Source of the DNA: Heloderma charlesbogerti
Taxonomy: Eukaryota; Chordata; Lepidosauria; Squamata; Helodermatidae
Length of the DNA stretch: 64,000 bases
Direction of reading: 5' to 3'
Assembly: GCA_026122225.1 (NCBI GenBank)
Contig: JANEZZ010001398.1
Span: 62,001 to 126,000 of the forward strand
The position numbers were made by a program, and so were the translations under genes. Shown in pieces: positions 19-60,712 of the stretch. The notes under the pieces were generated by a model. It did no database searches. It saw nothing but the letters and a program-made list of their open reading frames with translations, and was not told the DNA's origin. The first letter of the stretch is position 1. The number at the start of each line of letters is the position of its first letter.

Positions 19-980
19 TAGGGATGGCGGAGAATTCCGCCACGGATTTCAGTGAGGCCGAATGCACTGGCATTTGGCCCCCCGGAACCCATGGCGGAAC
101 AGCCTCTCACCCCCCTTCGGAATCCCACCCGGGACAAAGCTTACCTGGGGCAGATGTTCTGGTGGCGGTGCCTTCGGTGGTGGCACCGGCAATACCAGCG
201 CCAGCGGCTGGTCTTTCAACCACCTGCCGCAGCCGCCATCTGTGTCCTGCTGTTTGCCGTGATAGGCTACATAAGTATTTACGTAGCCTATCATAGCAAG
301 CCAAAAAAAAAAAAACAGCATACACAAATGGCGGTGGCTACGGGGGCCGCCCTTTGTGTTCCCTTTTTTTTCACTGTTTTAGCCTACGTAAATATACGGT
401 GAAAAAAAGGGGAACACAATTAGTGTAGTGGGCGCCATTTGCATTTCCTTTTTTTTTGTCATTTTAGCCTAAGTAAATATTTACATAAGCTATTACAGTG
501 GGGGGGAAAAGAATGCAAATAGCACTCACTACGCTATTTGCATTCCCCTTGTTTTCGCTGTAATAGGCTACGTAAATATTTACGTAGGCTAAAACGGCAA
601 AAAATATGGAATGCAAATAGTGTAGTGGGCTGTTTTTCCTTTGCTTCCTTTGCTGCTGTTGTTTTTTTGCCTGCCGTGATAGGCTACATAAATACTTACA
701 TAGCCTATCATGGCAGCCTGCCTGGACGCAAATGGCGGCCACTACGGCAGCCGCCATTTGCTTCCACAGCAGCCCGTCTGCAGCCAGAACTCCGGCTGCG
801 GATGGCCCTGGCCAACTGCTCCACGGAGCCACTGTGGAGTGAAGCTGGCCAGGCAGGATTCCAAGGGGGAGGACCGGATCACCTCCTCCCCCGTCGAGGA
901 TTCCGGGGGGAGGGACTGAGCACCTCCCCCCCACCACATATCATATCCGCAGAAAGGTAAGTGACTTTCGTACATCCCTA
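19..980 (+). mobile_element. hAT-type foldback element, copy 1 (type A)
   Basis: Reference copy for the family. The ends are TAGGGATGGCGG and TACATCCCTA (inverted TAGGGATG/CATCCCTA). The 8-bp target TGCAGAAC lies at 11-18 and reappears as TGCAGCAGAAC at 981-991, a duplication with a 3-bp CAG slippage. Order inside: terminal hairpin around GGAGAATTCC; GCTTACCTGGGG at 139 (a splice-donor consensus on the minus strand); five short palindromes with CTACGTAAA arms at about 257-298, 378-408, 459-500, 556-598 and 676-715; GCCGCCATTTG stems between them; a GGGGGGAGG/CCTCCCCCC block; and AAAGGTAAGTGAC at 953-965 (a donor on the plus strand). There is no transposase. The TSD length and TAGGG termini indicate hAT. 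Small reading frames inside come from the palindromes and are not genes. Confidence 0.88.
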
Positions 981-1581
981 TGCAGCAGAACACATCATGC
1001 GGCTTGATGAATCGAAGGCTGGAGTTAAAATTGCTGGAAGAAACATTAATCTCAGATATGCAGATGATACCACTTTGATGGCTGAAAGCAAGGAGGAGCT
1101 GAGGAACCTCATGACGAAGGTGAAAGAAGAAAGTGCAAAAGCTGGGTGGCAGTTAAACCTCAAAAAAAACAAGATTATGGCAAACAGCTTGACTGATAAC
1201 TGGCAAATAGAGGGAGAAAACGTGGAGGCAATGACAGACTTTGTACTTCTAGGCGCAAAGATTACTGCAGACACTGACTGCAGCCTGGAAATCAGAAGAT
1301 GTTTACTTCTTGGGAGGACAGCAATGACAAATCTTGATAAAATAGTTAAGAGCAGAGATATCACACTGACAACAAAGGTCTGCATAGTTAAAGCAATGGC
1401 ATTCCCCGTAGTAACTTATGGCTGTGAGAGCTGGACCATAAGGAAGGCTGAGCGAAGGAAGATAGATGCTTTTGAAGTGTGGTGTTGGAGGAAAATTCTG
1501 AGAGTGCCTTGGACTGCCAGAAGATCAAACCAGTCCATCCTCCAAGAAATAAAGCCAGACTGCTCACTTGAGGGAATTTAA
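981..1581 (+). pseudogene. BovB reverse transcriptase C-terminal half (dead)
   Basis: The frame open to 1581 encodes the palm and thumb part of a BovB-type reverse transcriptase: RYADDTTLMAESKEEL (motif C with both aspartates), then FEVWCWRKILRVPWTARRS and SILQEIKPDCSLE. It would act at the target site, copying the LINE RNA into DNA. The frame breaks at 1579 after an indel relative to the family, and the rest of the C-terminus lies beyond the foldback at 2509-2734. The upstream part of the domain is missing because a foldback separates it at position 19. The product would lack the endonuclease and fingers, so no function is expected. Confidence 0.85.
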
Positions 1582-1605
1582 AGGCAAAACTGAAGCACTT
1601 TGACC

Positions 1606-2508
1606 TAGGGATGGCGGAGAATTCTGCCAAGGATTTCAGTGAGCCATTCCGCCCTGAAATCCAGGGTGGAATGGCCTGCCACCCCTGCCACACACCCCCG
1701 CGGATTCCCCCCTGGACGAAGCTTACCTGGGGCAGATGTTCTGGACGGTGGCAGCTCCAGTGGCGGCTCTGATGGCAGCGGTGGTGGCAGCTGGTCTTTC
1801 GACCAGCTGCTGCAGCTGCCATTTGCATCCTAGTCTTTGCCGTGATAGGCTACGTAAGTATTTACGTAGCCTATCACAACAAGCCAAGCAAAAAGAAAAC
1901 AGCATACCCAAATGGCGGCTATGGCTGCCGCCATTTGCGTTCCCTATTTTTTGCCATTTTAGACTACGCAAATATTTACGTAAGCTATTACGGTGGGAAA
2001 AAAGGAACACAAATAGGGCCCACTACGCTATTTGCGTTCCCCTTTTTTTTCGCCGTAATAGCCTATGTAAATATTTACGTAGGCTAAAACGGTGAAAAAT
2101 AGGGAACGCAAATGGCAGCCGCCGTAGCCGCCACCATTTGCGTACGCCATTGGGGTTTTTTGCTTTTTTGTGTACGCCGTTGTTTTGGGTTTTTTGCCCA
2201 GCCATGATAGGCTACATAAATACTTACATAGCCTATCACAGCAGCCTGGTTGGACGCAAATGGCGGCGGCTATGGCGGCCGCCATTTGCATCCTCAGCAG
2301 CTCGTCTGTGGCTGGAACTCCGGCTGCGGACAGCACTGGCTGGCTGCTCTGCGGAGCCACCGCGGAGTGGAGCCGGCCAGGCAGGATTCCAGGGGGGAGG
2401 ACCGGATCGCCTCCCCCCCATTGAGGATTCTGGGGGGAGGGATGGAGCGCCTCCCCCACCACCACGAATCAATTCTGTGAAAAGGTAAGTGACTTTCATA
2501 CATCCCAA
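1606..2508 (+). mobile_element. Foldback copy 2 (type A)
   Basis: The TSD CTTTGACC is perfect at 1598-1605 and 2509-2516. The terminal TA has decayed to AA on the right. Four core palindromes (about 1838-1881, 1955-1997, 2055-2096, 2200-2242) are separated by CAAATGGCGG/CCGCCATTTG stems. Donor consensus sequences are at both ends: GCTTACCTGGGG near 1726 (minus strand) and AAAAGGTAAGT near 2480 (plus strand). Confidence 0.9.
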
Positions 2509-2734
2509 CTTTGACCACATAATGAGAACACAGGATACCCTGGAGAAGATGCTGATGCTAGGGAAAGTGGAAGGCAAAAGGAAGAGGGGCCGACCAAGGG
2601 CAAGATGGATGGATGATATTCTGGAGGTGATGGACTCAACCTTGGGGGAGTTGGGGGTGGCGATGGCCGACAAGGAGCTCTGGCATGGACTGGTCCATGA
2701 AGTCACGAAGAGTCGGAAAAAACTGAACGAATAA
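2509..2734 (+). pseudogene. BovB ORF2 C-terminal tail
   Basis: The frame encodes F-D-H-I-M-R, then LEKMLMLGKVEGKRKRGRPR, and ends TKSRKKLNE followed by a stop. This is the conserved C-terminal end of BovB-type ORF2 and is followed directly by the ACA-rich 3' tail. It belongs to the same LINE copy as the reverse transcriptase fragment upstream. Sequence identity to the other BovB copies in the window is visibly lower here, suggesting an older or different subfamily. Confidence 0.75.
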
Positions 2735-2736
2735 AC

Positions 2737-3416
2737 TAGGGATGTACAAAAGTCACTTACCTTTTCGTGGATGTGATTCACGGGTGGGGGGGGAGCCACT
2801 CCGTCCTCTCCCCCAGAATTCTGCCCGGCCGGCTCCCTGGAGCAGCCAGCCAGGGCCATCCATAGCCAGAGTTCCAGCTGCAGACTGGCTGCTGCGGACA
2901 CAAATGGCAGCCACCATAGCGGCCGCCATTTGCGTCCAGCCAGGCTGCCATGATAGGCTACATAAGTATTTACATAGCCTATCACGGCAGGCAAAAAAAG
3001 CGTACACAAATGGCGGCTGCTACGGTGGCCACCATTTGCGTTCCCTATTTTTCACTGTTTTAGCCTACGTAAATATTTACGTAGGCTAAAATGGCAAAAA
3101 ATAGGGAACGCAAATGGCGGCCGCCGTAGCCGCCGCCATTTGCGTACGCTTTTGGGTGGGGTTGCTTGCCATGATAGGCTACGTAAATACTTACGTAGCC
3201 TATCACGGCAAACAGCAGATGGAAATGGCAGCTGCGGCAGCCGGTCGGAAGACCAGCCACCGCTGCCCCCGGAACATCCGCCCCAGGTAAGCTTCGTCCC
3301 AGGGGGGGAATCCACGGGGCGGGGGAGGGAGGCCATTCCGCCATGGATTTTGGGAGACCAAATGCCAGTGCATTTGACCTCACTGAAATCCGTGGCGGAA
3401 TTCTCTGCCATCCCTA
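2737..3416 (-). mobile_element. Foldback copy 3 (type A)
   Basis: The TSD GAATAAAC is perfect at 2729-2736 and 3417-3424, at the junction of the BovB body and its ACA tail. The element is inverted: it starts TAGGGATGTACAAAAG and ends TCTGCCATCCCTA. Three core palindromes are visible (about 2947-2988, 3055-3093, 3170-3212). The splice-donor strings read CACTTACCTTTTC near 2754 and CCCCAGGTAAGC near 3282. Confidence 0.9.
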
Positions 3417-3525: not shown

Positions 3526-4849
3526 GGGCACAATCCCATGGCTGCTAGTAGGGATGGCGGAGAATTTCTCCCCGAAACTTCGGGGGGCCGAGCACCAACG
3601 TGTTCGGCCCCCCGAACACGTTTCAGGGAGAAATTCTCCGCACCCCCCCGCACACCGCAACCCCCCCCCGGGACGGGACTTACCTTTCCCAAATGTCCCT
3701 CCCAGCGACGGGTCCGGCCGGCGGTTCGGCAGGTGTTCATGCGGGGCGGGAGCGGCAGCCGGTCTTTTGACCGGCTGCCGCCCCCGCCATTCCAATAAAA
3801 GAAAAAAAAAACACCCCCGTGATAGGCTACGTGACGATTAACGTAGCCTATCACGGCTAGATCTGCAAAGTCAGCCGTGATAGGCTACGTTAATTGTCGC
3901 ATAGCCTATCACGGGTGACTTAAAAAAAAAAAAAGCGCGTACGGATAATGGCGGCCCCCATAGGGAGCCACCATTCGCGTTCCTTATTTGGTCGCTGTAG
4001 TCTACATAAAGATTTACGTAGACTACGGCGAAAATAAGGGCAACGCAAATAGCGTTGCCCTTATTTTCGCTGTAGTCTACGTAAATCTTTACGTAGACTA
4101 CAGCGACCAAATAAGGAACGCGAATGGCGGCTCCCTATGGAGGCCGCCATTTGCGTACGTGCTTTTTTTTTTCTTTTTTTTTAAGTCACCCATGATAGGC
4201 TATGTGACAATTAACGTAGCCTATCACGGCTGACTTTGCAGATCTAGCCATGATAGGCTACGTTAGTCGTCACGTAGCCTAACACGGGGGCGTTTTTTTT
4301 TAAAAAAAAATAACTTTGGAATTTGCGGCCGGGCGAGGCCTCCCTCCCCGGCCTGAACTTCGTGGGGGGAGCAGTGAAGCGCCTCCCCCCCACCGCGAAC
4401 AAGCTTCGAGGACAGGTAAGTGACTTTCGTCCACCCCTAGCTGCTAGACAGCAGCTAGATGGCCACAGGATTTTTTGGTTTTCAAGAACCAACCCCAGAG
4501 CCTGCGGTCTGAGGTTGGTTCCCAGAAAACCACCTCCCCACTCCCTCCCCCACCATGTTGTAAGCGGCGTGGATCATCCTGGGCTCTGCACTTGTAAAAG
4601 CAGTGTGGAGCGGGAAGAAAGGGGGCATTCCCTGGGGCAGGGGCAGCAGAAGCATCATTATGACTCTTCCTATGTGTGTCCCCCCCCGAACTACTCTGGC
4701 CAGGCAGCCGAAATTGGTCATCTAGCTGGTAATGAAGGGCAACTGGAGCATGGAGGAGAAGAGCCCCTCTGCATTCTGCCTGCCCTGGTGTGGATAGGTG
4801 ACTGCCCCCAAGCTCCAAGGCAGCTGCCTATCCTGACAGGATTGTTCCC
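3526..4849 (+). mobile_element. Harbinger-like MITE, interrupted by a foldback
   Basis: Starts TTA|GGGCACAATCC and ends AGGATTGTTCCC. With the foldback at 3549-4439 removed, the element is about 430 bp and contains an inverted CTAGATGGCCACAGGAT / GGCTGCTAG motif. The same family occurs cleanly at 34502-34848 with TAA on both sides, which fits the 3-bp TWA targets of PIF/Harbinger elements. Here the right-hand target is not preserved. The assignment rests on TIR and TSD style only. Confidence 0.5.
3549..4439 (+). mobile_element. Foldback copy 4 (type B)
   Basis: The TSD GCTGCTAG is perfect at 3541-3548 and 4440-4447. Type B ends fold as GAGAATTTCTCCCCGAAAC with a CGGGGGGCC / GGCCCCCCG stem. 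The core 3820-4290 is a large imperfect palindrome centred near 4050 (GGGCAACGCAAATAGCG). It is itself made of mirrored short palindromes in this order: GTGATAGGCTACGTGACGAT, the same motif inverted, GTAGTCTACGTAAATC, then the reverse series. The donors are AAAGGTAAGT on the minus strand (near 3680) and ACAGGTAAGTGAC on the plus strand (near 4413). Confidence 0.9.
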
Positions 4850-6268: not shown

Positions 6269-6388
6269 GGGCACAATCCTATGCATGTTTAGACAGAATA
6301 AAGTCCAACAACTCCCAGTATTCCCCCAGCCAGCCATGCTGGGAGTTGTAGGACTTTCTTCTGTCAAAACATGCATAGGATTACACCC
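6269..6388. mobile_element. Short Harbinger-like palindromic MITE
   Basis: A 120-bp hairpin starting TAA|GGGCACAATCCTATGC and ending GCATAGGATTACACCC|TAG. The arms share ATGTTTAGACAGA / TCTGTCAAAACAT. The near-matching TAA/TAG flanks fit a TWA target. It belongs to the same family as 62916-63017, which has perfect TAA on both sides. Confidence 0.65.
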
Positions 6389-6896: not shown

Positions 6897-8107
6897 TAGG
6901 GATGTACGAATCCCTAGGGATGGCGGAGAATTCCGCCATGGACTCCAGTGAGGCCAGATCCTTTAGAATCTGGCCCCCCAGAGCCTGTGGCGGAACGGCC
7001 TCCCTCCCCTCCGCCACCCCGCGGAATCTCCCCAGAACAGACCTACCTGGTGGCGGATGCGGCAGCAGCTCTGGTGGCAAATTAAGCAGTGGTGGCAGCT
7101 CCAGCCGCTGCCAGGCTGCTGCGGATGCAAATGGCATCCTGCATAGGGAGCACCATTTGCATCCCTACGCTAGCCCGTGATAGGCTACATATATATTTAC
7201 ATAGCCTATCATGGCTAAAGTCCCCTATGCCATTTGTGTTCCCACTTTAGCCACTTTAGCCATGACATAAATATTTACGTAGCCTATCACGGGCTAGCGT
7301 AGGGATGCAAATGGCATCCCCTATGCAGGATGCCATTTGCATCTGCAGCAGCCCAGCAGTGGGTGGAGGCCCCGCTGCGGGTTGGCCCGGCCGGTGGCTC
7401 CACGGACTGGCTGCGGAGCGAAGCCAGTGGGGCAGGATTCCAGGGGGAGAGGAATGGATTGCCTCCCCCCCCCCGACGAGGATTCCAGGGAGAGGAACGG
7501 ACCGCTTCCCCCCACCTGCGGACCCCAGCAAAGCCAGGTAAGTGGGGTTTTGTACACCCCTATGAATCCCTTACCTGCTTCTGTTATGGGTCGTCCATGG
7601 GGGGGGAAGCGATCCGTTCCTCCCCCTGGAATCCTCCCTGGCTGGCTATGTTCTGCGGCAAGTCCACAGAGCCGCCAGCCGGGGCCGCCCACAGCTGGAC
7701 CTCCATCTGCTGCCGGGCTGTGGCCGCAAATGGCGGCTGCCGTATCAGCTGCCATTTGCGTCACTGTGTTAGCCGTAATAGGTTACATATATATTTACGT
7801 AGCCTATCACAGCAAAGAGCAGAGATGCAAATGGCGGCCGCTACGCCATTTGCATCCCTGCTCTTTTCATGATAGGCTACATAAATATATACGTAGCCTA
7901 TCATGGCTAACGCAGGGACGCAAACGGCGGCCACAGACCAGGGCCGCCATTCGCAGCCGCAGACAAGGGCAGCAGATGGCTTACAACAGGTAGGATCTGT
8001 CCCGGGGAATTTTCGTGGGGTGGCAGGGGGGAATGCTCTGTTCCTCCATGGACTTCTAAAGAATCCGGCCTCACTGGAGTCCATGGTGGAATTCTCTAAC
8101 ATCCCTA
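6897..8107 (-). mobile_element. Foldback copy 5 (type A), outer member of a nested pair
   Basis: The TSD GCCCCCAC is perfect at 6889-6896 and 8108-8115. Reading in: TAGGGATGTACGAATCCC, then a younger foldback (6915-7562), then TTACCTGCTTCTG onward to TCTCTAACATCCCTA. Two core palindromes lie at about 7770-7815 and 7868-7910. Its left splice-donor site (minus strand CAGGTAAGG) abuts the insertion point. Confidence 0.9.
6915..7562 (+). mobile_element. Foldback copy 6 (type A), nested inside copy 5
   Basis: It sits 18 bp inside the end of copy 5. The duplicated target is CGAATCCC (6907-6914) against TGAATCCC (7563-7570), 7 of 8 bases. Two core palindromes (7171-7214 and 7255-7295) flank a GCCATTTGTGTTCCC spacer. 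The right donor is GCCAGGTAAGT near 7532; the left donor is weaker (CCAGGTAGG on the minus strand). Confidence 0.9.
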
Positions 8108-8155: not shown

Positions 8156-8787
8156 AAGGGATGTTGGAGAATTCCGCCACCAATTCCAGGGAGGCCGAAT
8201 GCCAGAGCATTCGGCCTCCCGGAATCCATGGCGGAATGAAGCCAACTGCCCCACCACCCTGCAAAATGGCCCCAGAGCGGAGTCTACCTTTGTCGACCAT
8301 TCTGGTGCTCCTCGAATGGCGGCCATGTCTGCGGCCGCCATTCGCGTCTTTCGAATGGCCATGATAGGCTACGTAAGTATTTACGTAGCCTATCACAGCT
8401 AATGCAGGGATGCCATTTGTGTCCCTACGGAGGCCATGATAGGCTACATAAATATTTACATAGCCTATCACGGCAATAGGAAGGAACGCAAATGGCGGCC
8501 GCCGTAGCCGCCGCCATTTGTGTCCGTGTCTTTAGCCATGATAGGCTACGTATATATTTACGTAGCCTATCACGGCAAAAGACAGGGGTGCAAAAGGCAG
8601 CACTACGGCAGCCGCCATTTGCATCCCTGTGCAGCCCAGCGACTGGATGTCTGGCTGCGGGCGGCCCCAGCCAGCAGCTCTGCGGAGCGGAGCCGGCCGG
8701 GGAGTATTCTGGGGGGAGGGATGGAGCACCTCCCCACCACCACAGATTGCCCGGCATGGAGCCAGGTAAGTGTTTTGTACATCCCTA
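8156..8787 (+). mobile_element. Foldback copy 7 (type A)
   Basis: The TSD CTACCAGG is perfect at 8148-8155 and 8788-8795. The first base has changed (AAGGGATG). There are three core palindromes (8358-8398, 8431-8474, 8534-8577). The left donor has decayed to AAAGGTAGAC on the minus strand, while the right donor GCCAGGTAAGTG is intact. Confidence 0.9.
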
Positions 8788-10086: not shown

Positions 10087-10768
10087 TAGGGATGGCGGAG
10101 AATTTCTCCCCGAATTTTCGGGGGGCCGAGCACCAACGCATTCGGCCCCCCGAAATCGGCGGTGAAATTCTCCGCCACCCCCACCACCACCCCCCCGGGA
10201 TGGGACTTACCGTAGCCGAATGTCCCTCCCGGCAGCGGGTCCTGGCGGCGGTTCGGTGGGCTTTCGGCGGGGGCGGGGATGGCAGCCGGTCTTTCAACCG
10301 GCTGCCGCCACCGCCATTACAGCTGAAGTAAAAAAAAAAAGATTTACGTAGACTACAGGGACCAAATAAGGAATGCAAATGGCGGCGCCCCATGGGGGCC
10401 GCCATTTGCGTACGCGCTTTTTTTTTTTCAAAGTCACCCGTGATAGGCTATGTAACGATTAACGTAGCCTATCACGGCTGACTTTGGAAATCTAGCCGTG
10501 ATAGGCTGCGTAAATCGTTACGTAGCCTATCACGGGGTTTTTTGTTTTTTGTTTTCACTTTCGTAGTTTGCGGCCGGGGAGATGGGGCACGTCTCCCCGG
10601 CCTGAATTTCGGGCGGGCGAGGCGGGGCGCCCCTGCCAGGCCTGAATTTCGTCCAGGTGAGGCAGGGCACCTCCCCCCCCAGCCTGAATTTCAGGGGGAG
10701 AAGCGAAGCGCCTCCCCCCCACCACGAAGCAAAGCTGCGAAAAGGTAAGTGACTTTCATACATCCCTA
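10087..10768 (+). mobile_element. Foldback copy 8 (type B)
   Basis: The TSD GTCTGATC is perfect at 10079-10086 and 10769-10776. The target is the first arm of a 5S-derived palindrome. Only the right half of the usual mirrored core survives: GATTTACGTAGACTACAGGG at about 10342, then palindromes at 10437-10475 and 10496-10535. The right donor is AAAAGGTAAGTGAC; the left is CGGTAAGT on the minus strand. Confidence 0.9.
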
Positions 10769-18309: not shown

Positions 18310-18312
18310 ACA

Positions 18313-19824: not shown

Positions 19825-20710
19825 GGTTGGTGGAGAATTTCTCCCCGAAACTTCGGGGGCCGAGCGCCAATGTGTTCGGCCCCCCGAACAAGTTTCGGGG
19901 AGAAATTCTCCACACACCCCCACACCCCACACCCCCCCGGGACGGGACTTACCTTTGGCGAATGTCCCTCCCGGCAGCGGGTCCGGCCGGCGGTTTGGCG
20001 GGTGTTCACCCGGGGCAGGAGCGGCAGCCGGTCTTTCGACCGGCTGCTGCCGCCGCCATTCCAATCAAAGAAAAAAAAACGCCCCCGTGATAGGCTACGT
20101 GACGATTAACGTAGCCTATCACGGCTAGATCTGCAAAGTCAGCCGTGATAGGCTACGTAAATCATCACGTAGCCTATCACGGGTGACTTTAAAAAAAAAA
20201 AAAAAAAAGCACGTACGGATAATGGCGGCCCCCATAGGGAGCCGCCATTCGCGTTCCTTATTTGGTCGCTGTAGTCTACGTAAATCTCTACGTAAATCTA
20301 CGTAAAGCAACGAATCTTTACGTAGACGACAGCGACCAAATAAGGAATGGGAATGGCGGCTCCCTATGGGGGCCGCCATTATCCGTACACGCTTTTTTTT
20401 TTTTTTAAGTCACCCGTGATAGGCTACGAGACGATTAACGTAGCCTATCACGGCTGACTTTGCAGATCTAGCCGTGATAGGCTACGTTAATCGTCACGTA
20501 GCCTATCACGGAGGCGTTATGTTTTGTGTTTTAAAACTTTTTAGTTCGTGGCCGGGCGAGGCGGGAAGCCTCCCCCCTGGCCTGAATTTTGGCCGGGCGA
20601 GGCGGGAAGCCTCCCCTCCCGGCCTGAACTTCACGGGGGGAGCAACGAAGCGCCTCCCCCCCACCGCGAACAAGCTTCGAGGACAGGTAAGTGACTTTCG
20701 TCCATCCCTA
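19822..20710 (+). mobile_element. Foldback copy 9 (type B)
   Basis: Inserted in the BovB frame. The flanks ATCTGAAG (19814-19821) and AATTCTGAAG (20711-20720) are a target duplication disturbed by a small indel. The core 20088-20510 mirrors around about 20295 and parallels copy 4 unit for unit. The central unit has expanded: CTACGTAAATCTCTACGTAA is followed by a second CTACGTAAAGC before the closing arm. Donors: AAAGGTAAGT (minus) near 19947 and ACAGGTAAGTGAC (plus) near 20683. Confidence 0.88.
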
Positions 20711-24459: not shown

Positions 24460-24588
24460 TAGGGATGGCAGAGAATTCTGCCATGGACTCCAGTGAGGCT
24501 GGATTCTTAGAATCCGGCCCCCCGGAATCCATGGCGGAACAGCCTCCCCCCCCGCCACCCCATGGAATCCCCCCAGGACGGAGCTTAC

Positions 24589-42402: not shown

Positions 42403-43198
42403 TAGGGATGTCAGAGAATTCCACCACAGATTTCGGGGAGGCCGAATGCCAGTGCATTTGGCCCCCCAAAATCGGTGACGGAACGGTCTGCCACCACCCC
42501 GCCACCCCCCCGGGACAGGACTTACCTTGGGTAATTCTTCCTGGTGGCGGTGGCTCCAGTGGCGGCTCCGGCAGTGGTGTGGCAGCGGCGGCTGTGGCGG
42601 CCGGTCTTCCGACCGGCTGCCACCACCGCCATTTCCAGTTAAAAAAAACAAAAAACAAAAAAAAGTGATAGGCTACGTAAAGATTTATGTAGCCTATCAC
42701 GGCTAGATTTTTAAAAAACACCGTGATAGGCTACGTAAATGTTTACATAGCCTATCACGGCTGATTTAAAAAAAAACAAAACGCTACGCTATTTGCGTTC
42801 CCCTTATTTTCGCCATCTTAGTCTACGTAAATGTTTACGTAGACTAAGACATGCCAAAATAAGGAATGCAAATGGCGGCGCCCATGGGTGCCGCCATTTG
42901 CGTACGCGCGTGGGTTTTTTTTTCTTTTAAATCAGCCATGATAGGCTACGTAAACATTTACATAGCCTATCACGGCTGACTGCAGGGACGCAAATGGCAG
43001 TGGCTACGGCCACCGCCATTTGCGTTCCTGCTAGCCAGCGGCTGGATGTCCGGCCGCTGGAGGAGCTGGCCGGCGGCTCCGCAGAATCCCTGCAGAGCGG
43101 AGCCGGCTGGCCAGGATTCCGGGGGGGGAGGGACGGAACGCCTCCCCCCCAACCATTAGCATAATCCCCGAACGGTAAGTGATTTTCGTACATCCCTA
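42403..43198 (+). mobile_element. Foldback copy 16 (type A, TTAGTCTACG core)
   Basis: The TSD CTTCCAGC is perfect at 42395-42402 and 43199-43206. Paired outer palindromes lie at 42664-42701 and 42720-42762, one inner unit (CTTAGTCTACGTAAATGTTT) at 42817-42850, and a closing unit at 42935-42976. The inner mirrored half is shortened relative to copy 17. Donors: CAAGGTAAGT (minus) near 42524; CGGTAAGTG (plus) near 43174. Confidence 0.9.
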
Positions 43199-48126: not shown

Positions 48127-49433
48127 TAGGGTGTTGAACCAGAGGGCCATGGGACAAATATGTCCTGCCTAGGGTCCGAATCCAACCCTCCAGGATTTCC
48201 CAGAAGGGCATGCCCCTTTCACCACCTCACAAGGTGGTAGGGATGTCAGAGAATTTCGCCACAAATCTCGGGGAGGCCGAATGCCAGTGCATTCGGCCCC
48301 CCGAAATTGGTGGCAGAATTGTCTTCACCCCCCCCCGCCACCCCTGGGACGGGACTTACTTTGGGCGGATCTTCCTGGCAGCGGTGGCTCTGGCGGCGGT
48401 TTGGTGGCGGTTCAGCAGCGGTGGCTGCAGCAGCCGGTCTTCTCACCGGCTGCCGCCACTGGCATTTCCAGTTAAAAAAAACACACACAACAAAAACATG
48501 AAAGGCTACGTAAAGATTTACGTAGCCTATCATGGCTAGATTTTTAAAAAACACCGTGATAGGCTACGTAAATGTTTACGTAGCCTATCACGGCTGATTT
48601 AAAAGAGAGGAAAAATGCGCGTACGCAAATGGTGGCGCCCATGGGCGCCGCCATTTGCATTCCTTATTTTGGCATGTCTTAGTCTACGTAAACATTTACG
48701 TAGACTAAGACGGCGAAAATAAGGGGAACGCAAATAGCGTAGCGTCTACACTATTTGTGTTCCCCTTATTTTCGCCGTCTTAGTCTACGTAAACGTTTAT
48801 GTAGACTAAGACGTGCCAAAATAAGGAACGCAAATGGTGGCGCCCATGGGCGCCGCCATTTGCATACACGCGTTTGTTTGTTTTTTCTTTTAAATCAGCC
48901 ATGATAGGCTACGTAAACATTTACGTAGCCTATCATGGCTGACTGCAGGGACGCAAACGGCAGTGGCTACAGCCGCCGCCATTTGCGTCCCTGCTAGCCA
49001 GCGGCCGGATGTCTGGCCACTGGCGGAGCCGGCCGGCGGCTCTGCAGAATCCCTGCAGAGCGGAGCCGGCTGGCCAGAATTTCAGGGGGGAGGGACGGAG
49101 CGCCTCCCCCCCACCACGAATGTCACCCTTCGAAAAGGTAAGTGACTTTCGTACATCCCTACAAGGTGGTTCCCACTCCCCCCCCAATTGTGGATCATTT
49201 GATAATGTCCTAGGTTTTGCATGTTTCTCCCCATTTTCAAAGGTTGAAATGCCTCTCATAAGGTTTAGTTACCAGTAGTAAGAGCTTGAAGCTAAACTAT
49301 GCTTGGATGTTTGGCACTTTTGACTCCTCCCCTTTGGCCTTTGGCCTTGCCCACCACTGGAATGCAGCCCCAAGAACTTCATCACAATTGAAATCTGCCC
49401 TAGGGCTGAAAGAGGTTTAACATCCCTGCTCTA
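48127..49433. mobile_element. Old repeat with GGTGTTGAACC ends, interrupted by a foldback
   Basis: The left end TAGGGTGTTGAACCAGAGGG and right end GAGGTTTAACATCCCTGCTC are inverted. With 48238-49161 removed it is about 380 bp. A second, more disrupted copy spans 58155-60775. The terminal style resembles a hAT non-autonomous element, but no clear TSD remains. Confidence 0.4.
48238..49161 (+). mobile_element. Foldback copy 17 (type A, fullest core)
   Basis: The TSD CAAGGTGG is perfect at 48230-48237 and 49162-49169. This copy shows the clearest hierarchical core (48500-48950), mirrored around about 48745 (GCAAATAGCGTAGCG). From the outside inward: GATAGGCTACGTAAAG, GATAGGCTACGTAAATG, GCGCCCATGGGCGCC, CTTAGTCTACGTAAACATTT, then the same units in reverse order and orientation. 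Donors: CAAAGTAAGT (minus, one base off) and AAAAGGTAAGTGAC (plus). Confidence 0.92.
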
Positions 49434-49448: not shown

Positions 49449-50225
49449 TAGGGATGGGGGAGAATTTCTCCCCGAAACTTTGGGGGGCCGAGTGCCAATG
49501 CATTCGGTCCTCCGAAGGTTTAGGGAGAAATTCTCCGCCACCCCTCGCCACCCCCTGGGATGGGACTTACCTTTTACGAATGTCGCTCCCGGCGGTGGGT
49601 CCCGGAGGCGGTTCGGCAGGTCTTCTGACGCCACCGCCGCAATTACAAGAAAAGTAAAACAAAAACAAAACGCCCCTGTAATAGGCTACGTAACGATTAA
49701 CGTAGCCTATCACAGCTAGATTTGCAAAGTCAGCCGTGATAGGCTATGTTAATCATCACGTAGCCTATCACGGGTGACTTTAAAAAAAAAAAAAAGCGCA
49801 AATAGCATTGCCCTTATTTTCGCCGTAGTCTACGTAAATCTTTACGTAGACTACAGGGACCAAATAAGGAACGCGAATGGTGGCTCCCTATGGGGGCCGC
49901 CATTTGCGTACGCGCTTTTTTTTTTTTTTTTAAGTCACCCGTGATAGGCTACGTGACGATTAACGTAGCCTATCATGGCTGACACTGCAGATCTAGCCGT
50001 GATAGGCTACGTAAATCATTACATAGCCTATCACGGGGCTTTTTTTTTTTTCTTTTGAAGTTCGTGGCTGGGGAGACGGGGCGCTTCTCCCCAGCCTGAA
50101 TTTCGGCCGGGCGAGGCGGGAAGCCTCCCCCCCCCCGGCCTGAACTTCGGGGGGAGAAGCGAAGCGCCTCCCCCCCACCGCGAAGCAAGCTGCGAGGCCA
50201 GGTAAGTGACTTTCGTACATCCCTA
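49449..50225 (+). mobile_element. Foldback copy 18 (type B)
   Basis: The TSD CCAGGATT is perfect at 49441-49448 and 50226-50233. Part of the left half of the mirrored core is deleted near 49797, so the GTAGTCTACGTAAATC unit appears once (49825-49857). Outer units remain on both sides. Donors: AAAGGTAAGTCCC (minus) and GCCAGGTAAGTGAC (plus). Confidence 0.9.
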
Positions 50226-52878: not shown

Positions 52879-52910
52879 CAGTGGCATCTTAAAATTGGAA
52901 TCATGGATTA

Positions 52911-52954: not shown

Positions 52955-53892
52955 TCTTCTTAGGGATCCATAACTGGTTAAAGAACATAAAATAGAGAGT
53001 AGGAATAATTGGTCAATTCTCCCAATGGAAGGAAATAAATAGTGGGGGTCCCACAGGGATCTGTATTAGGACCAATGGTTTTCAACCTGTTCATAAATTA
53101 TCTGGAATTAGGAGAGAGGAGTGAAGTGGCCAAGGTTGCTGATAACACCAAATTATTTAGATTGGTTAAAACAAACAGGGATTGTGGGGAGCTCCAAAAG
53201 GATCTCTGCAAACTGGGAGAATGGGCATCTAAATGGCAAATGCGGTTCAACATAAGCAAATGTATAGTGATGCAGGTTGGGGTAGGGATGTGTGAACCCA
53301 CCCCCGTCCGGGTTCTCCGGGCACCTGCCTAGCTGCTGCCCTGGCTCACCAGTCCCCAGACTGCGCCCAAGCCCCTCCTGTGCTTGGCAAGCAGCCCACA
53401 CTCACCCCAGTGGCCTCATCAAGCTCTACAGTCACCATTTCTTGAGAAATAAAATGATGACCACAAAATGCACATATTTGCTTATGTGTGAAAATGTGCA
53501 TTTTTGCAAAAATGTGCATTTTCACACATAAGCAAATAAGCACATTTTTGTGATCTCCATTTTATTTCTCAAAAAATGGTAATCACAAAGCTTGAGGAAG
53601 CTGCTGGGGTGAGTGTAGGCTGTTCACCAAGCACGGGCAGGAGGCAGGCAGGGGCAAAGGCTCAACGAGCAGGGCTCATGGGCAAGAAAAGGGGAGGTTC
53701 CACCCGATTTCCAGACTGAATCAGGCACCCACAACATCCCTAGTTTGGGGCAAAAACCCAGCTTCAAGTATCACCTGATGGGATCTGAGCTAGCGATGAC
53801 CAACCAAGAAAGAGATCTTGGGGTTGTGGTGGACAGCTTGATGAAAATGTCAACCCAGTGTGCAGCTGCTGTAAAAAAGGCAAACTCCATGT
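52955..53892 (+). mobile_element. CR1 LINE fragment, split by a second hAT family
   Basis: Plus-strand CR1: GVPQGSVLGPMVFNLFINYL, then VAKVADNTKLFRLVKTN and LCKLGEWASKWQMRFNISKC. After the insert at 53283-53742 it continues with ELAMTNQERDLGVVVDSLMK and CAAAVKKANSML. Motif C reads A-D-N in place of A-D-D, so the second catalytic aspartate is replaced by asparagine. It is cut off by a foldback at 53893. Confidence 0.88.
53283..53742 (+). mobile_element. Unrelated hAT-like foldback (TAGGGATGTGTG family)
   Basis: 460 bp, ends TAGGGATGTGTGAACCC and ACCCACAACATCCCTA. The flanks GGTTGGGG and GTTTGGGG match at 7 of 8. Its centre is a palindrome of another composition, with arms AAATGTGCATTTTTGC / GCAAAAATGTGCATTTTC inside AAATGG / CCATTT and GTGACTGTAG-type outer arms (53400-53600). 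It lacks CTACGTAAA units and the GTAAGT ends of the main family. Confidence 0.75.
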
Positions 53893-54175
53893 TAGGGGAG
53901 TATGAAACCCACTCACCAGTCCGCTGGGGGGGTCTGCAGTGGGGGGGAGGCAATCCATCCCTCCCCCCGGAATCCTCCCCAGCCAGCTCTGCTCCACGGC
54001 GAGTCCATGGAGCCTCCAGCCGGGTCCATCCGCAGCCAGACCTCTGTCTGCAGCCGGTCTGCAGACGCAAATGGCGTCCGGTGTAGTGGATGCCATTTGC
54101 GTCCCTTTTCTTTGCCGTGATAGGCTATGTAAAGATTTACGTAGCCTATCATGGCAAAGAGAAGGGACGTAAATG
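53893..54175 (-). mobile_element. Foldback copy 19 (type A), half element
   Basis: Begins TAGGGGAGTATGAAACCC (diverged terminus), with TCACCAG/CTGGTGAGT in the donor position. It has one core palindrome (54114-54155) and stops at GGGACGTAAATG, where copy 20 begins. No right half and no TSD were found. Confidence 0.75.
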
Positions 54176-54976
54176 TAGGGATGTACGAAAGTCACTTAAC
54201 GTTTTGTGGATCTGCTTCGCGGTGGGGGGAAGGTGCTCCGTCCCTCCCCCCGGAATCCTCGACGGGGGAGAGGAACTCCGTCCCTACCCCCAGAGTCCTG
54301 CCTGCCTGGCTCCGCTCCACAGGGATTCCACGGAGCCACCGGCGGGCTCCGCCTGCAGCCGGACATCTGGCCACTGGGCAGCAGGGTCGCAAACAGCGGC
54401 GGCCATAGCCGCTGCCATTTGCATCCCTGTACTTAACCATGATAGGCTACATAAATATTTACGTAGCCTATCACAGCAAAGTAAAAAAAAAAGTGTACGC
54501 AAATGGCGGGGGTACGGCGGCTGCCATTTGCATTCGCTGTTTTTTCGCCATTCTAGCCTACGTAAACATTTACGTAGGCTAGAACGGCGAAAAATAGTGA
54601 ACGCAAATGGCAGCCACCATAGCCGCCGCCATTTGTGTACACTGCATCCGGCTGCGGCCGGCCAGGAGACCAGCCGCCGCAGCACCTGCTGCTGCACTCG
54701 CCGCACCTGCCGCCGCCGCACCCGCTGCTGCCGCCGCCCCGCTGCACCCGCTGCCCTGCCACACCCACTGCCCTGCCGCACCCACCGCCGCACCCGCAGC
54801 ACCCGCCGCCGCACCCGCCAAAATTTGCATAAAATTCCCAAAGGTTAGAAAAATGGTCCACAAGTCCACAGAATCCACCTGACAAGGGAAAAGCTGGACT
54901 GCTGACAAATCCACGGGTCAGATTCATACAAATCTGAACCCTTTTGGTTCTGTTGCAGATCTCTCCGACATCCCTA
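54176..54976 (-). mobile_element. Foldback copy 20 (type A, chimeric right end)
   Basis: The left end TAGGGATGTACGAAAGTCAC and core palindromes (54437-54478, 54548-54592) are typical. The left donor is mutated (ACGTTAAGTGAC on the minus strand). The right end (from about 54830) reads AAAATTTGCATAAAATTCCC, AGATTCATACAAATCTGAAC and TCTCCGACATCCCTA, which no other copy has. The flanks CGTAAATG and CCCACAGC do not match. It is probably a recombinant between families. Confidence 0.75.
54663..54826. repeat. CCG/CACCCGC-rich simple repeat inside copy 20
   Basis: About 160 bp of GCCGCCGCACCCGC-type imperfect repeats with CACTGCCCTGCC variants. Long alanine- or proline-rich frames across it are artefacts of the repeat. 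Confidence 0.8.
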
Positions 54977-55605: not shown

Positions 55606-56139
55606 TAGGGATGCGGGAGAATTCTGCCACGGACTCCAATGAGGCTGGATTCTAAAGAATCTGGCCCCCCAGAGTCCGTGGCGGAACGGAAGACTTACCC
55701 CCACCACCAGGAGGAATCCTCTTCAGCTGGCTCCTCCGGCTCTGGATTGCCAGCGATACAGCCGCCATGCTGTATCACTGGTTGAAGGGAAGTGACTGTG
55801 GACGCAAATGGCATCCAGAATGCCATTTGCGGCTGTAAAGGCCTTAGTTTAAGGTAAATGCAGCTGTAAATGGCTACAATTTACCTTAAACTAAGACCTT
55901 TACAGCTGGAAATGCTGTCCTGGATGCCATTTGTGTCCACAGTCAGTTCCCTCCCTTCAGCCAGCGATACGGCATGGCGGCCGTATCGCTGGCACTTCAG
56001 AGCTGGCCGGTGGCTCTGCGTAATCACCACAGAGTGGAGCCGGCCAAAGAGGATTCCGGGGGGGAGGAATGGATCACCTCCCCCCCCCGTGGACCCCCCA
56101 CCCCCCCGGAATGGCAGGTAAGCATTCCACCCATCCCTA
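55606..56139 (+). mobile_element. Foldback copy 21 (type C: same ends, different core)
   Basis: The TSD GAGGTAAA is perfect at 55598-55605 and 56140-56147. The ends (GGGAGAATTCTGCCACGG; GGGGGGAGG, GCAGGTAAGCATT, CATCCCTA) and the GACGCAAATGGCATCC / GGATGCCATTTGTGTC stems belong to the family. The centre carries no CTACGTAAA unit. It is instead GCTGTAAAGGCCTTAGTTTA (55832-) paired with AAACTAAGACCTTTACAGC (to 55906), enclosed by CAGCGATAC / GTATCGCTGG stems. Confidence 0.88.
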
Positions 56140-56687: not shown

Positions 56688-56780
56688 GGCACAATCCTAT
56701 TCAGATAGGCGTCCGCCTCCGAACTTGGAGGCAACCGCCTACTCAATGCAGGGCAGGAGAAGCATGGAGGGAATTGTTAG
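56688..56780 (-). mobile_element. Harbinger-like MITE end fragment
   Basis: TAG|GGCACAATCCTATTCAG, then ATAGGCGTCCGCCTCC and TGCAGGGCAGGAGAAGCATG, is the right-hand part of the 34502-34848 family in reverse. It is fused at about 56780 to a foldback lacking its left terminus. Confidence 0.5.
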
Positions 56781-57642
56781 GCAAATTCTCCGCCGGCCCC
56801 CCGCCCCCCCAGGATGGGACTTACCTTCGGCGAATGTCCCTCTCAGTGGTGGGTCCCGGGGGCGGTTCAGCAGCGTTTCGTCGGGGGCGGGGCGGCGGTC
56901 TCCCAACCGGCTGCCGCCGCCACCATTGCAAAAAAAAAGTAAAGTAAAAAAAAAAAAAACCACCCGTGATAGGCTACGTAATGATTTATGTAGCCTATCA
57001 TGGCTAGATTTCCAAAGTCAGCCATGATAGGCTACGTAAATTGTCACGTAGCCTATCAAGGCTGACTTTGGGGGGGGGGAAAGCACGTACGCAAATGGCG
57101 GCGCCCATGGGGCACCGCCATTTGCTTTCCTTATTTTGGCACATCTAGTCTACGTAAAGATTTACGTAGACTACGGCGAAAATAAGGGCACGCTATTTGC
57201 TATCTTTACGTAGACTAGACGCGCCAAAATAAGGAACGCAAATGGCGGTCCCCATGGGATCGGCCATTTGCGTACACGTTTTGGGGGGGGAGTTTCAAAG
57301 TCACCCGTGATAGGCTACGTGACGATTTATGTAGCCTATCATGGCTGACTTTGGAAATCTAGCCGTGATAGGCTACGTAAATCGTTACGTAGCCTATCAC
57401 GGGTGTGTGTGTTTTGGAGGGTTTTTTAACTTTTTTTTTCGTGGCCGGGTAGACAGGACGCTCCTACCCGGCCTGAATTTCGGCGGCGAGGGATGGGGCG
57501 CCTCCCCCCCGCCCTGAATTTTGGCCGGGCAAGGCGGGGCACCTCCCCCCCCTCACCTGAACTTCGGGGGGAGAACCGAAGCGCCTCCCCCCCACCGCGA
57601 AGCAAGCTGCGGGACAAGGTAAGTCCCTTTCATCCATCCCTA
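56781..57642 (+). mobile_element. Foldback copy 22 (type B), left terminus missing
   Basis: Starts within the family at AAATTCTCCGCCGGCCC, so about 70 bp of the left end is lost. It ends CATCCATCCCTA. The core 56963-57402 is mirrored near 57190, with a short left inner half (TCTAGTCTACGTAAAGATTT). Donors: GAAGGTAAGTCCC (minus) and ACAAGGTAAGTCCC (plus). No TSD is expected with the end missing. Confidence 0.85.
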
Positions 57643-58510: not shown

Positions 58511-59181
58511 TAGGGATGTACGAATCCCACTCACCCATCTGTTCTGGGGCATCGGCGGTAGCGGGGAGGTGCTCCATCCCTCCCCCCAGAATCCTCCCTG
58601 GCTGGCTCCACTCCATGGCAACTCTGCAAACCCACCAGCTGGGGCTGGCCACAGCTGGAATTCCGGCCGCTGCCGGGCTGCTGAGGCCACAAATGGTGGC
58701 ATTTGCATGTCTGCCAAGCCGTGATAGGCTACGTAAGTATTTACGTAGCCTATCACAGCAAAAGGCAGCCACGCAAATGGCGGCCGCTACGTGATAGGCT
58801 ACATAAATACTTACATAGCCTATCATGGCAAAGAGCAGGGGTGTAAACGGTGTAGCGGCCGCCATTTGCACCCCTGCTTTTTACCGTGATAGGCTATGTA
58901 AGTATTTATGAAGCCTGTCATGGCAAAAGGAAGCCACGCAAATGGCAGCCGCTACAACAGCTGCCATTTGTGGCTGCAGCAACCTGGCAGCGGCCAGGAG
59001 ACCAGCCAGAGCTGCCTCCGCATCCGCCGCCACCGCCGCATCTGCCACCAGGTAAGCTCTGTTCTGGGGGGATCCCGTGGGGTGGTGGGTGGGGAGGCCA
59101 TTCCGCCCCAGAATCTGGGGGGGCGGATTCTAAAGAATCTGGCCTCACTGGAGTCCGTGGCGGAATTCTCTGACATCCCTA
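58511..59181 (-). mobile_element. Foldback copy 23 (type A)
   Basis: The TSD ATCCAATG is perfect at 58503-58510 and 59182-59189, inside the gypsy leader. There are three core palindromes (58720-58761, 58790-58830, 58884-58924). The left donor has become GGGTGAGTGG on the minus strand; the right donor ACCAGGTAAGCTC is intact. Confidence 0.9.
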
Positions 59182-59283
59182 ATCCAATGAATACAGCTAA
59201 CTGGTAAGCAGTCAGCTAGGGCCACTTAAGAACTTGAGCAACTCCTGTGTTTTGTTTTGTTTTTAAAGAGAATTAAAATCAAA

Positions 59284-59690
59284 ATGGCTGATTGTGGACA
59301 TATCAAAGTGTTTGATGTTAGTCAACCTGCTTCCTGGGATTCTTTTGCAGAATGGCTTTCATTCTATGTGGAAGCAAATAAGATAGCCCATGCTGAACAA
59401 AAGCGAGCTGTGCTTTTAACTCTTTGTGGGCCATAGACGTTTGCCATAGTAAGATCCCTCTGCTCCTGCCTCACCCAAAACTAAGACATTTGATGAACGT
59501 TTGGGATTATTGAAGATACATCTCCCACCAAATCCTTCAGTTATTGTGCAGAGATTTAAACTTCACAAATGAATGCAGCAACCTGGAGAGGGCATTGCCA
59601 CTTATATTGCAGAACTTAGCAGAAGCTCCACCCACTGCTCCTACTCCCAACTCTACAGGAGCTGCCAAGGTTCAAAACAAGAACTAACTC
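59284..59690 (+). pseudogene. Ty3/gypsy gag remnant
   Basis: It starts at ATG 59284 (MADCGHIKVFDVSQPASWDS), followed by FAEWLSFYVEANKIAHAEQK and VLLTLCGP, the N-terminal capsid pattern of gypsy gag proteins. It has a TAG near 59434 and a later frame change. It continues with KTFDERLGLLKIHLPPNPS, VIVQRFKLHK and YIAELSRSSTHCSYS. Gag would form the particle that packages the element RNA. Only the N-terminal half remains, and it runs directly into the downstream LTR block. Confidence 0.72.
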
Positions 59691-60002
59691 ACCATACACG
59701 CCTCCCCCCCGCTCCCCGAATACAGTTCTGTATGTGATAAATAAAGGACAGTTGTGATTGAGGCCTGCTGGGTCTGACAGTTATTCCCTCTACCTATACA
59801 ACAGGTTTCCCAGCTTTTGTGCAGTTTTTTCCCCATTCTAAATGGCTGAAATTCCTCTACTAAGGCTCAGTTCCTGGTAGGAAGAGCTTCAAGCTACAAT
59901 ATGTGAGTACTTCTTGATCTAGTTGGCCCTGCTGCTTTTGCCTTTATTCCTGCTCCCTTTTGCCTTTGGTCCCAGCCACTCCGGGAACATGGTCTGAAAA
60001 AC

Positions 60003-60712
60003 TAGGGATGTACGAAAGTCACTTACCTTTTTGCGGATGTGATTCGCGGTGCGGGGGAGGCGCTCCATCCCTCCCCCCGCAATCCTCAATGGGGGGGAGG
60101 CGATCCAGTCCTCCACCCCAGAATCCTCTATGGGGGGGAGGCGATCCGGTCCTCCCCCCCGGAATCCTGCCCGGCCGGCTTTGCTCCACGGAGGCTCCGC
60201 AGAGCAGCCGGCCAGGGCCATCCGCAGCCGGAGTTCCTATTTGCATTCCCACTACGCTATTTGCATTCCCCCTTTTTTTTTGCCATAATAGCCTACATAA
60301 ATATTTATGCAGGATAAAACGGCGAAGAATAGGGAACACAAATGGCGGCCGCCGTAGCTGCCGCCATTTGCATACGCGTTGTTGTTTTTTTGCTTGCCGT
60401 GATAGGCTACATAAATACTTACATAGCCTATCACGGCCTCTACAGGGACGCAAAAGGTATCCCTGCATTAGCCGTGATAGGCTACGTAAGTATTTACGTA
60501 GCCTATCACAGCTATGATGAGGAAGCGTATGGTGGCCGCAGGTTGGCTGCCATTCGCAAGTCAGCGCGGAAGGCAGCAGTTAAGTGCTCTGTTCCGTGCA
60601 CCTTTCATGGGTTGGGGGGGCAAGGGCTTCGTTCCACCACGGATTTCGGGGGGCCAAATGCACTGCCATTCGGCCTCACCAAGATCCGTGGTGGAATTCT
60701 CCACCATCCTTA
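60003..60712 (-). mobile_element. Foldback copy 24 (type A)
   Basis: The TSD TGAAAAAC is perfect at 59995-60002 and 60713-60720. The right terminus is CATCCTTA (one change). Core palindromes lie at 60281-60318 (damaged: TTATGCAGGATAAAACGG), 60399-60437 and 60472-60512. A second GGGGGGGAGGCGATCC block is duplicated in the left part (60090-60150). The left donor CACTTACCTTTTTGC is strong; the right one is not recognisable. Confidence 0.88.

Follow-up and report, generated by a model that had tools for sequence, protein, structure and literature searches.

A dense group of probable non-autonomous hAT elements with palindromic cores in Heloderma charlesbogerti DNA

Related elements

Foldback transposons are defined by long terminal inverted repeats, which are also carried by the sea-urchin TU elements, and the target pattern nTnnnnAn is linked to the Ac family of hAT elements. 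The 11-bp terminal inverted repeats (TIRs) of maize Ac/Ds read C/TAGGGATGAAA; Ac/Ds and Ds-like elements make 8-bp target duplications (TSDs) and include heterogeneous non-autonomous copies with common ends and differing interiors, those of Ds2 and Ds-l4 being filler (PMC3260210, in excerpt). Hermes, with 17-bp imperfect TIRs, likewise makes 8-bp TSDs, for which the pattern nTnnnnAn is given, and AAGT is the site of the BED domain of its transposase; Tol2 carries the palindrome AAGTACTT immediately inside its TIR, and both elements encode a transposase (PMC10368747, in excerpt). Mar, a hAT MITE of the Buster type, is short and non-autonomous, with 8-bp TSDs of consensus nnnTAnnn, and hAT TIRs range from 5 to 27 bp (PMC3517528, in excerpt). 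Tetris, a foldback element of Drosophila virilis, is apparently non-autonomous and modular, with ~220-bp tandem repeats inside its terminal inverted repeats and with end portions common to another element (PMC4079207, in excerpt).

The elements described here lie in a 64,000-bp stretch of DNA, which we refer to as the window. Their TIR is 8 bp long (TAGGGATG/CATCCCTA), with terminal complementarity ending after those 8 bp, and the maize Ac/Ds TIR starts with the same TAGGGATG, a match at 8 of 11 bp that makes the ends Ac-type in sequence. Ac/Ds is the nearest terminal sequence found, displacing the sea-urchin TU elements offered as the nearest concept in the original prediction; TU elements have long terminal inverted repeats, whereas only 8 bp are common to the termini here. 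The Ac/Ds match had gone unnoticed in that prediction. As in Ac/Ds, common ends enclose differing interiors, but the core is a palindrome array and not filler. An AAGT quasi-palindrome at or adjoining the TIR recalls Hermes and Tol2, although the TIRs are shorter than those of Hermes and no transposase was found in the copies. Short length, lack of autonomy and 8-bp TSDs are features in common with Mar, and apparent lack of autonomy, modularity, internal repeats and end portions found in more than one element with Tetris; unlike the Tetris repeats, the units here are of ~51 bp, alternate in orientation and lie inside the element. No such family is named among the literature matches listed, a comparison that had Repbase and Dfam outside its scope, nor in the excerpted part of the tuatara paper (PMC7116210).

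Copies, ends and target duplications

Within the window there are 22 occurrences of TAGGGATG and 21 of CATCCCTA. Near-exact ends no more than 5 kb apart were paired by their 8-bp flanks, which yielded 17 perfect TSDs, exactly those given before; two more pairs differ at one base. The family predicted from the sequence is borne out, but its size is 25 copies instead of 24, of which 22 have both ends and three are partial (Table 1). Among the 22, a further four have TSDs with one or two mismatches, and a single copy (19822-20710) has none, six of its eight flanking bases being different. Exact flank matches are confined to a length of 8 bp (17/22), with 0/22 at each length from 4 to 7 and from 9 to 12, and the arithmetic expectation for a chance exact 8-bp match is about 4^-8 per pair. 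Seventeen of the copies measure 472–962 bp, and two copies lie wholly within others.

Table 1. Positions of the copies and associated features in the window.
Feature	Position	Strand	Details
Copy	19..980	+	TSD with 2 mismatches, TGCAGAAC/TGCAGCAG
Copy	1606..2508	+	TSD CTTTGACC
Copy	2737..3416	-	TSD GAATAAAC
Copy	3549..4439	+	TSD GCTGCTAG; palindrome of the core spans positions 255-753 of the element
Left-end hairpin of copy 3549..4439	3557..3641	+	Element positions 9-93; type counted for compensated changes
Right-end subterminal motif of copy 3549..4439	4410..4439	+	AGGTAAGTGACTT adjoining TIR
Copy	6897..8107	-	TSD GCCCCCAC; hosts nested copy
Copy, nested, 18 bp inside end of 6897..8107	6915..7562	+	TSD CGAATCCC/TGAATCCC, 1 mismatch
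Copy	8156..8787	+	TSD CTACCAGG
Copy	10087..10768	+	TSD GTCTGATC; adjoins 5S-like palindrome, apparently inserted in it
Copy, both ends, without TSD	19822..20710	+	
Copy, 472 bp	22311..22782	-	TSD GGAAGCAC
Copy split by reverse transcriptase fragment	24460..26392	+	TSD GTTAGTGG; fragment presumably L2-like
Copy	29843..30615	+	TSD CCTCTCCA
Copy	39466..40259	+	TSD CCTCTAGC
Copy, hosts nested copy	40380..41991	+	TSD AAAAAAAC/GGAAAAAC, 2 mismatches
Copy, nested in 40380..41991	40867..41760	-	TSD CGTAAATA, across centre of a host palindrome
Copy	42403..43198	+	TSD CTTCCAGC
Copy, clear alternating array	48238..49161	+	TSD CAAGGTGG; centres near element positions 404, 456, 506, 557, 609
Copy	49449..50225	+	TSD CCAGGATT
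Relative, family TIR, different nested-palindrome core	53283..53742	+	TSD with 1 mismatch
Partial copy, truncated, host of insertion 54176..54976	53893..54175	-	
Partial copy, starts inside 53893..54175	54176..54976	-	TSD not recovered
Copy, common ends, different palindromic core	55606..56139	+	TSD GAGGTAAA
Partial copy, right end, no left end found	56772..57642	+	
Copy	58511..59181	-	TSD ATCCAATG
Copy	60003..60712	-	TSD TGAAAAAC

A similarity search of the window with 16 copies as queries assigns 17,209 bp in 22 regions to the family (27% of the window), in agreement with the high density and the figure of about 17 kb first proposed; 53283-53742 falls outside this coverage, yet has the family TIR and TSD length. 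The group comprises several core types with common ends, together with copies that have different cores (55606-56139 and 53283-53742), which corrects the account of a single family. For annotation, the group illustrates that unrelated palindromic cores may sit between common hAT ends, so that a consensus based on the core would divide it. The copies are MITE-like, being short, non-coding and present in multiple copies with common ends and TSDs, and the 8-bp TSD and short TIR, at 8 bp within the range for hAT elements, are those of the hAT superfamily.

Coding content

Sixty ORFs of the window were scanned, namely 50 of the 134 ORFs of at least 75 aa outside the elements (the other 84 are of at most 108 aa) and 10 in or overlapping elements. 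They contain no hAT Pfam domain, the matches being RVT_1 and one sub-threshold low-complexity match, and the 10 element ORFs have no Pfam domain at all. The prediction of non-autonomous, hAT-type elements with no transposase found is supported; for non-autonomous copies such a result would be expected. Two chance element ORFs compared with the predicted proteins of other species, squamates included, gave no matches at E 0.001 or 0.01, which is weak evidence. Neither a transposase nor an autonomous relative is seen in the window, so that movement in trans is an inference; the copies would have moved by cut-and-paste, the hAT transposase coming from an element beyond the window. That the group is hAT and moved in trans is, in our judgement, very likely. 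A reverse transcriptase in the window resembles squamate and ruminant proteins.

Target sites and spacing

The Hermes pattern nTnnnnAn does not clearly emerge from the targets (12 of 34 half-sites, p 0.16), and the central TA of the Buster pattern nnnTAnnn occurs in just one of the 17; the Buster family was rejected on these target sites. Post hoc, G or C stands at target positions 1 and 8 in 28/34 (p 2.8e-5) and T3/A6 in 18/34 (p 8.7e-4), a pattern that was chosen after viewing the table of 17 sites and is not relied on.

Local tandem or segmental duplication in place of transposition could be considered as the source of the density, since the gap lengths between copies are somewhat clustered (CV 1.30 vs 0.94, p 0.034). 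However, the number of neighbours less than 500 bp apart is not clearly raised (7 vs 4.6, p 0.13), the 17 perfect TSDs are all distinct, and 12-bp flanks are not common to copies except for 6897-8107 and 8156-8787, which show identical intervening bases because they lie almost end to end. Tandem duplication was rejected on the TSDs, and we regard local duplication generally as exceedingly improbable.

Subterminal motifs

Over their final 60 bp, the right ends are enriched for the tetranucleotide AAGT and its complement, ACTT, with a density of 23.0 per kb where the background has 7.1, and at least one of the two is present in 20 of 22 ends; the left 200 bp show no enrichment (5.5 vs 7.1 per kb). 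The quasi-palindrome AAGT..ACTT is present in 12 right ends and absent from the other 10. We predict that the transposase would bind a subterminal motif that includes the AAGT-N-ACTT quasi-palindrome immediately internal to the right TIR.

A competing reading of the same region is that the conserved GGTAAG near both ends is a putative outward host 5′ splice site, a mobile splice donor, and not a transposase-binding motif. Under the commonly known splice-site consensus, NNN|GTRAG is found in 21/22 right ends (MAG|GTRAG in 19), 22–25 bp from the tip, and in 17/21 left ends (MAG in 12), 60–138 bp from the tip and on the other strand, compared with 8 occurrences of MAGGTRAG on both strands of the 46,495 bp outside elements. 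In four right ends, moreover, a base other than T follows GGTAAG, so that AAGT is lost and GGTAAG kept. Nevertheless, three of these four ends retain another AAGT closer to the tip, the GGTAAG sequence of most right ends includes the AAGT expected for a hAT BED domain, and common ancestry of the copies makes retention weak evidence. We consider a splice-donor role decidedly unlikely, and favor binding by the transposase.

Palindromic cores

A palindrome of at least 250 bp occupies the core in 15 of 20 copies, the other five having palindromes of only 90–204 bp; the best reaches 91.5% identity over 507 columns. In most copies the core consists of arrayed ~51-bp units whose orientation alternates, which produces nested palindromes, and many copies could therefore fold as one long hairpin. 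The units measure 48–53 bp, with 75–92% identity within each of the five copies measured, and of the 110 distances between the palindrome centres detected, 51 are 48–55 or 58 bp. Two copies that were folded as DNA gave z values of -29.04 and -30.49. The name foldback first given to these elements is thus apt as to folding, but the folding is internal; a classical foldback with long terminal inverted repeats was rejected, because inversion at the termini extends over just 8 bp and the long inverted repeats lie within the element. The arrays may have expanded via inverted duplication.

The median best inverted-repeat score is 242 in the 20 elements (lowest 78.3) and 25.4 in 49 control segments, each of 800 bp and taken from outside the elements. 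Four of the 49 controls exceed 78.3, and strong palindromes are therefore not exclusive to the hAT group; the control maximum of 468 is a separate 5S-like palindrome adjoining copy 10087. The palindromes also contain strings that we take to be YY1-like and octamer-like. The window has no Rfam match at gathering score, and sub-threshold matches at 10,000-11,400, mostly to microRNA precursors, are read as hairpin shape only. Modules vary widely in number, order and type between copies.

Concerted evolution of the arms

The two arms of a core evolve in concert, at the level of the subfamily. With CpG positions set aside, arms differ by 4.8% within a copy, a value biased toward similarity because arm limits were taken from palindrome hits. 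Within subfamilies the difference is 8.3% for the same arm and 8.6% across arms, and between subfamilies 16.7% for both, with subfamilies assigned by eye, one holding a single copy, and arms cut in 11 of the 20 element sequences. Left arms are as close to right arms as they are to other left arms. In a tree of the arms, left and right arms of subfamily 1 are united (97/96), as are those of subfamily 2 (100/98), while subfamily 3 is not a clade and 10 of 19 forks are open.

Once the subfamilies had split, the arms may have been re-matched by a polymerase that copied one from the other, switching templates within a hairpin as the DNA was replicated or repaired. Such copying as the cause of the matched arms is a tentative reading, which we place slightly short of an even chance. 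Another account, possible though we rather doubt it, is that each subfamily founder remade its palindrome by inverted duplication, and that the young arms then decayed with no copying between them. It accommodates the union of arms by subfamily in the tree, the near equality of cross-arm and same-arm divergence inside a subfamily and the variable number of units among cores. In addition, copies 2737 and 1606 have left arms that cluster together (99/98); in that pair, arm divergence is thus older than the split of the copies, as it would be were the palindrome to predate both. This counts against arm-copying in each copy, as do the lack of a subfamily 3 clade and the open forks. Against fresh duplication, arms are closer within a copy than between copies of the same subfamily, and the left-end hairpin would need remaking in place. 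That hairpin aligns at one position across 21 left ends and has 56 cells altered on both sides, where shuffles have 25.8 (0/500 reaching 56) and slid controls no more than 13, in a test where two of five measures are not above the shuffles, the shuffles ignore relatedness and the structure was drawn from the same sequences; RNAalifold gives the left ends a covariation term of just -0.39.

The compensated cells, as well as the very strong folding of the two copies, would also suit selection that maintains arm pairing, the hairpin being needed as transposition DNA or as RNA. This we think unlikely, for the wide variation among modules tells against it, and the copies with other cores (55606-56139 and 53283-53742) bear TSDs too, perfect in the first and with one mismatch in the second, so that no specific core hairpin seems to be required. 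Taken as a whole, the explanation that these are non-autonomous hAT elements moved in trans, with arms re-matched by copying, is probable. A more ambitious version, a self-building vertebrate hAT core in which a ~51-bp unit is repeatedly inverted-copied, arms are re-matched in each source lineage by hairpin-templated synthesis linked to transposition or its repair, and palindromes renew themselves, with mobile bidirectional splice donors in addition, strikes us as highly doubtful.

How long palindromes originate in a genome and keep their symmetry is recorded naturally in these copies; the template-switching literature, among the matches listed, covers yeast, E. coli, great-ape genomes and RNA genes. 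In four of the five copies of subfamily 1, cores are less divergent than left ends in all six pairs of copies, and less divergent than right ends in five of the six.

Copies, termini and target duplications

The strings TAGGGATG and CATCCCTA, the 8 bp terminal inverted repeats (TIRs) of the elements, occur 22 and 21 times respectively in the 64,000 bp, and 22 copies have both ends. Seventeen of these are flanked by perfect 8 bp target-site duplications (TSDs), four by duplications with one or two mismatches, and one (19822–20710) by none; flank matches of 4–7 or 9–12 bp are absent from all 22. The perfect duplications, recovered by pairing the flanks of near-exact ends, are the same 17 as in the original prediction, which also proposed four imperfect ones. 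Adding three partial copies brings the total to 25, so that the high copy number is borne out although the count differs from the 24 proposed; BLASTN with 16 copies as queries assigns 17,209 bp in 22 regions to the family, in agreement with the earlier estimate of about 17 kb. Two copies lie entirely within another copy, and a third, copy 54176 (copies are named by their start), begins inside a truncated copy. The TSD of copy 40867 straddles the centre of a palindrome in its host copy. The copies show no more than mild clustering along the sequence (p 0.034), and we infer that the density of copies alone needs no special cause.

Relationship to known hAT elements

Judged by TSD length and the TAGGGATG terminus, the copies are members of the hAT superfamily, as predicted. 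Their TIR is identical to the first 8 bp of that of maize Ac/Ds, given as C/TAGGGATGAAA and TTTCATCCCTA (PMC3260210), and the likeness to the Ac family of hAT elements consists of these 8 bp. Beyond them there is no inverted match between the 21 left and 22 right ends aligned: what follows is usually GGCGGAGAATT or a close variant on the left and, in the inward direction, TACGAAAGTCACTTACCT or a close variant on the right. Classical foldback elements have long terminal inverted repeats, and the "foldback" label in the original prediction is therefore not retained. The target pattern nTnnnnAn, which is given for Hermes and which we take to apply to the Ac family, fits 12 of 34 half-sites; the Buster pattern nnnTAnnn is seen in one of 17, and on target sites the copies do not fit that family.

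A hAT transposase would move the copies in trans. None was found among 60 ORFs of the window scanned against Pfam, again as predicted; these comprise 10 ORFs that lie in elements or overlap them, and 50 of the 134 ORFs with a length of 75 aa or more that lie mostly outside elements, the 40 longest included (the other 84 are all 108 aa or shorter). The only matches are to RVT_1 in five ORFs, three of them above the cut-off, and a sub-threshold match to Extensin_1 in one repeat-rich ORF.

Organization of the palindromic core

The best self-complementary stretch is at least 250 bp long in 15 of 20 element sequences and only 90–204 bp in the remaining five (8156, 10087, 22311, 60003, and 53893). 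It occupies element positions 255–753 in copy 3549 (91.5% over 507 columns) and 317–701 in copy 48238 (88.4%); some copies have a far weaker one, with 66% in 19 and 58511. For copies 3549 and 48238, the two of the main group that were folded as DNA, the energies are −398.7 and −354.1 kcal/mol, and shuffled sequences average −138 and −149 (z −29.04 and −30.49, 20 shuffles each). The best inverted-repeat score has a median of 242 in 20 elements (lowest 78.3) and of 25.4 in 49 control segments of 800 bp outside elements; four controls exceed 78.3, so long palindromes here are not unique to the element group, and the top control (468) is a separate palindrome with 5S-like sequence. Copy 55606–56139 combines the common ends with another palindromic core, and 53283–53742, whose TIR is the same and whose 8 bp TSD is imperfect, contains yet another nested palindrome (z −15.52).

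Two types of short palindrome recur in the core, B, centred on GCTACGTAAATATTTACGTAGC, and C, centred on GCAAATGGCGGC and GCCGCCATTTGC. Among 110 spacings between neighbouring centres from a loose motif scan, 37 are 48–55 bp, 14 are 58 bp, 41 take other values up to 150 bp, and 18 are longer. In the six copies examined for this, the final B is 18 bp away from the tip, which makes it a right-end motif and no part of the array. When cut between centres, the core of the five copies measured resolves into one 48–53 bp unit in alternating orientation, with units 75–92% identical inside a copy; the long and short palindromes are therefore two levels of one array. The literature entries listed, as distinct from repeat libraries and vertebrate genomes, describe no such group; we rate the elements as of a kind already known, and their nested array of alternating units, with its matched arms, as a variant not found among those entries.

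Arms that match within copies

Both arms (the two halves of the core palindrome) were compared in 11 of the 20 sequences, assigned by eye to subfamilies of five, three, two, and one copies. The two arms of a copy differ at 4.8% of non-CpG positions (range 0.7–7.9%). Different copies of a single subfamily differ by 8.3% when the same arm is compared and by 8.6% across arms, and the value between subfamilies is 16.7% in either comparison. In the arm tree both arms are united in subfamily 1 (97/96) and in subfamily 2 (100/98), and copies 2737 and 1606 have left arms that group together (99/98); subfamily 3 is not resolved, and 10 of 19 forks are open. These groupings indicate that the arms became matched after the subfamilies split, and, in the 2737/1606 pair at least, before the copies split. 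Template switching from one arm to the other may account for the concert; such switching has been proposed as the way in which the stems of RNA genes arise and are kept (PMC8794818) and is stated to homogenise inverted-repeat arms (PMC8604942). The main rival is a fresh inverted duplication in each founder, which would explain matched arms and accounts for the 2737/1606 grouping no less well than template switching does. In subfamily 1 (four of the five copies, six pairs) the core differs less than the left end in all six pairs and less than the right end in five, as expected if the arms correct one another.

The TSD pairs of 21 copies (19822 left out) differ at 6 of 168 positions (3.6%), near the arm figure, both values being rough because heavily mismatched TSDs would go unrecognised and arm limits come from the palindrome search. 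A hairpin drawn for 21 left ends has 56 cells changed on both sides; shuffles give 25.8, and slid controls no more than 13, the latter comparison favouring the hairpin because it was drawn from the same sequences. Shuffles reach both the number of pairs with two-sided change (14 of 30; shuffle mean 12.7) and the number of further pair types, and RNAalifold's own structure has two-sided changes in seven of 19 pairs, its covariation term being just −0.39 kcal/mol.

Subterminal motifs

AAGT-N-ACTT lies directly inside the right TIR in 12 of 22 copies, and 20 have at least one AAGT or ACTT at the right end; their density is 23.0 per kb in the last 60 bp vs 7.1 in background, and the left 200 bp show no enrichment (5.5 vs 7.1). 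The BED domain of Hermes binds AAGT, and in Tol2 the TIR is followed immediately by AAGTACTT (PMC10368747). Most copies also carry an outward-facing, splice-donor-like GGTAAG near their ends, as at 4410–4439. The 5′ splice site consensus NNN/GTRAG is present in 21 of 22 right ends, 22–25 bp from the tip (MAG/GTRAG in 19), and, on the other strand and facing outward, in 17 of 21 left ends, 60–138 bp from the tip (MAG in 12); the 46,495 bp outside elements contain MAGGTRAG eight times, counting both strands. Four right ends have a non-T base after GGTAAG, with AAGT lost and GGTAAG kept, and three of the four have another AAGT nearer the tip. Judged from sequence, the end motif would suit a putative 5′ splice site as well as a transposase site.

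Other repeats in the window

The 504 aa reverse transcriptase ORF (18310–19821), which we take to be that of a BovB LINE, matches proteins named from ruminants, Podarcis, Varanus, and Anolis, with 72–83% identity among the 120 matches listed; its top matches carry either no name or that of a bacterium or protozoan, taken here for contamination. Taken together with the 5S-like repeat, these matches would point to a squamate host. The 5S-like palindrome may consist of two 5S-derived SINEs in inverted orientation. Copy 10087–10768 adjoins it and has a 5S-like TSD.

Repeats of the window outside the hAT-like group
Feature	Position	Remarks
BovB-type LINE-like fragments (type presumed)	17768–19821, 961–1578, 28112–28612, 52467–52907	Grouped by eye; the longest keeps the 504 aa ORF with RVT_1
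Reverse transcriptase ORF, 277 aa, RVT_1	24497–25327	Inside hAT copy 24460–26392; presumably L2-like
Distinct 5S rRNA-like palindrome, 448 bp or longer (87%)	about 10780–11280	Rfam 5S 27.1 bits at 11198–11296 (gathering score 38)
Two palindromic MITE-like repeats	6262–6395, 62912–63021	Ends resemble each other, both with ATCCTATGCATGTTTAGACAGA, and differ from the hAT group
Imperfect palindrome, 209 bp (68%), type not assigned	51579–51787	
Minisatellite-like stretch	35027–35892	Short repeated units, several frames open
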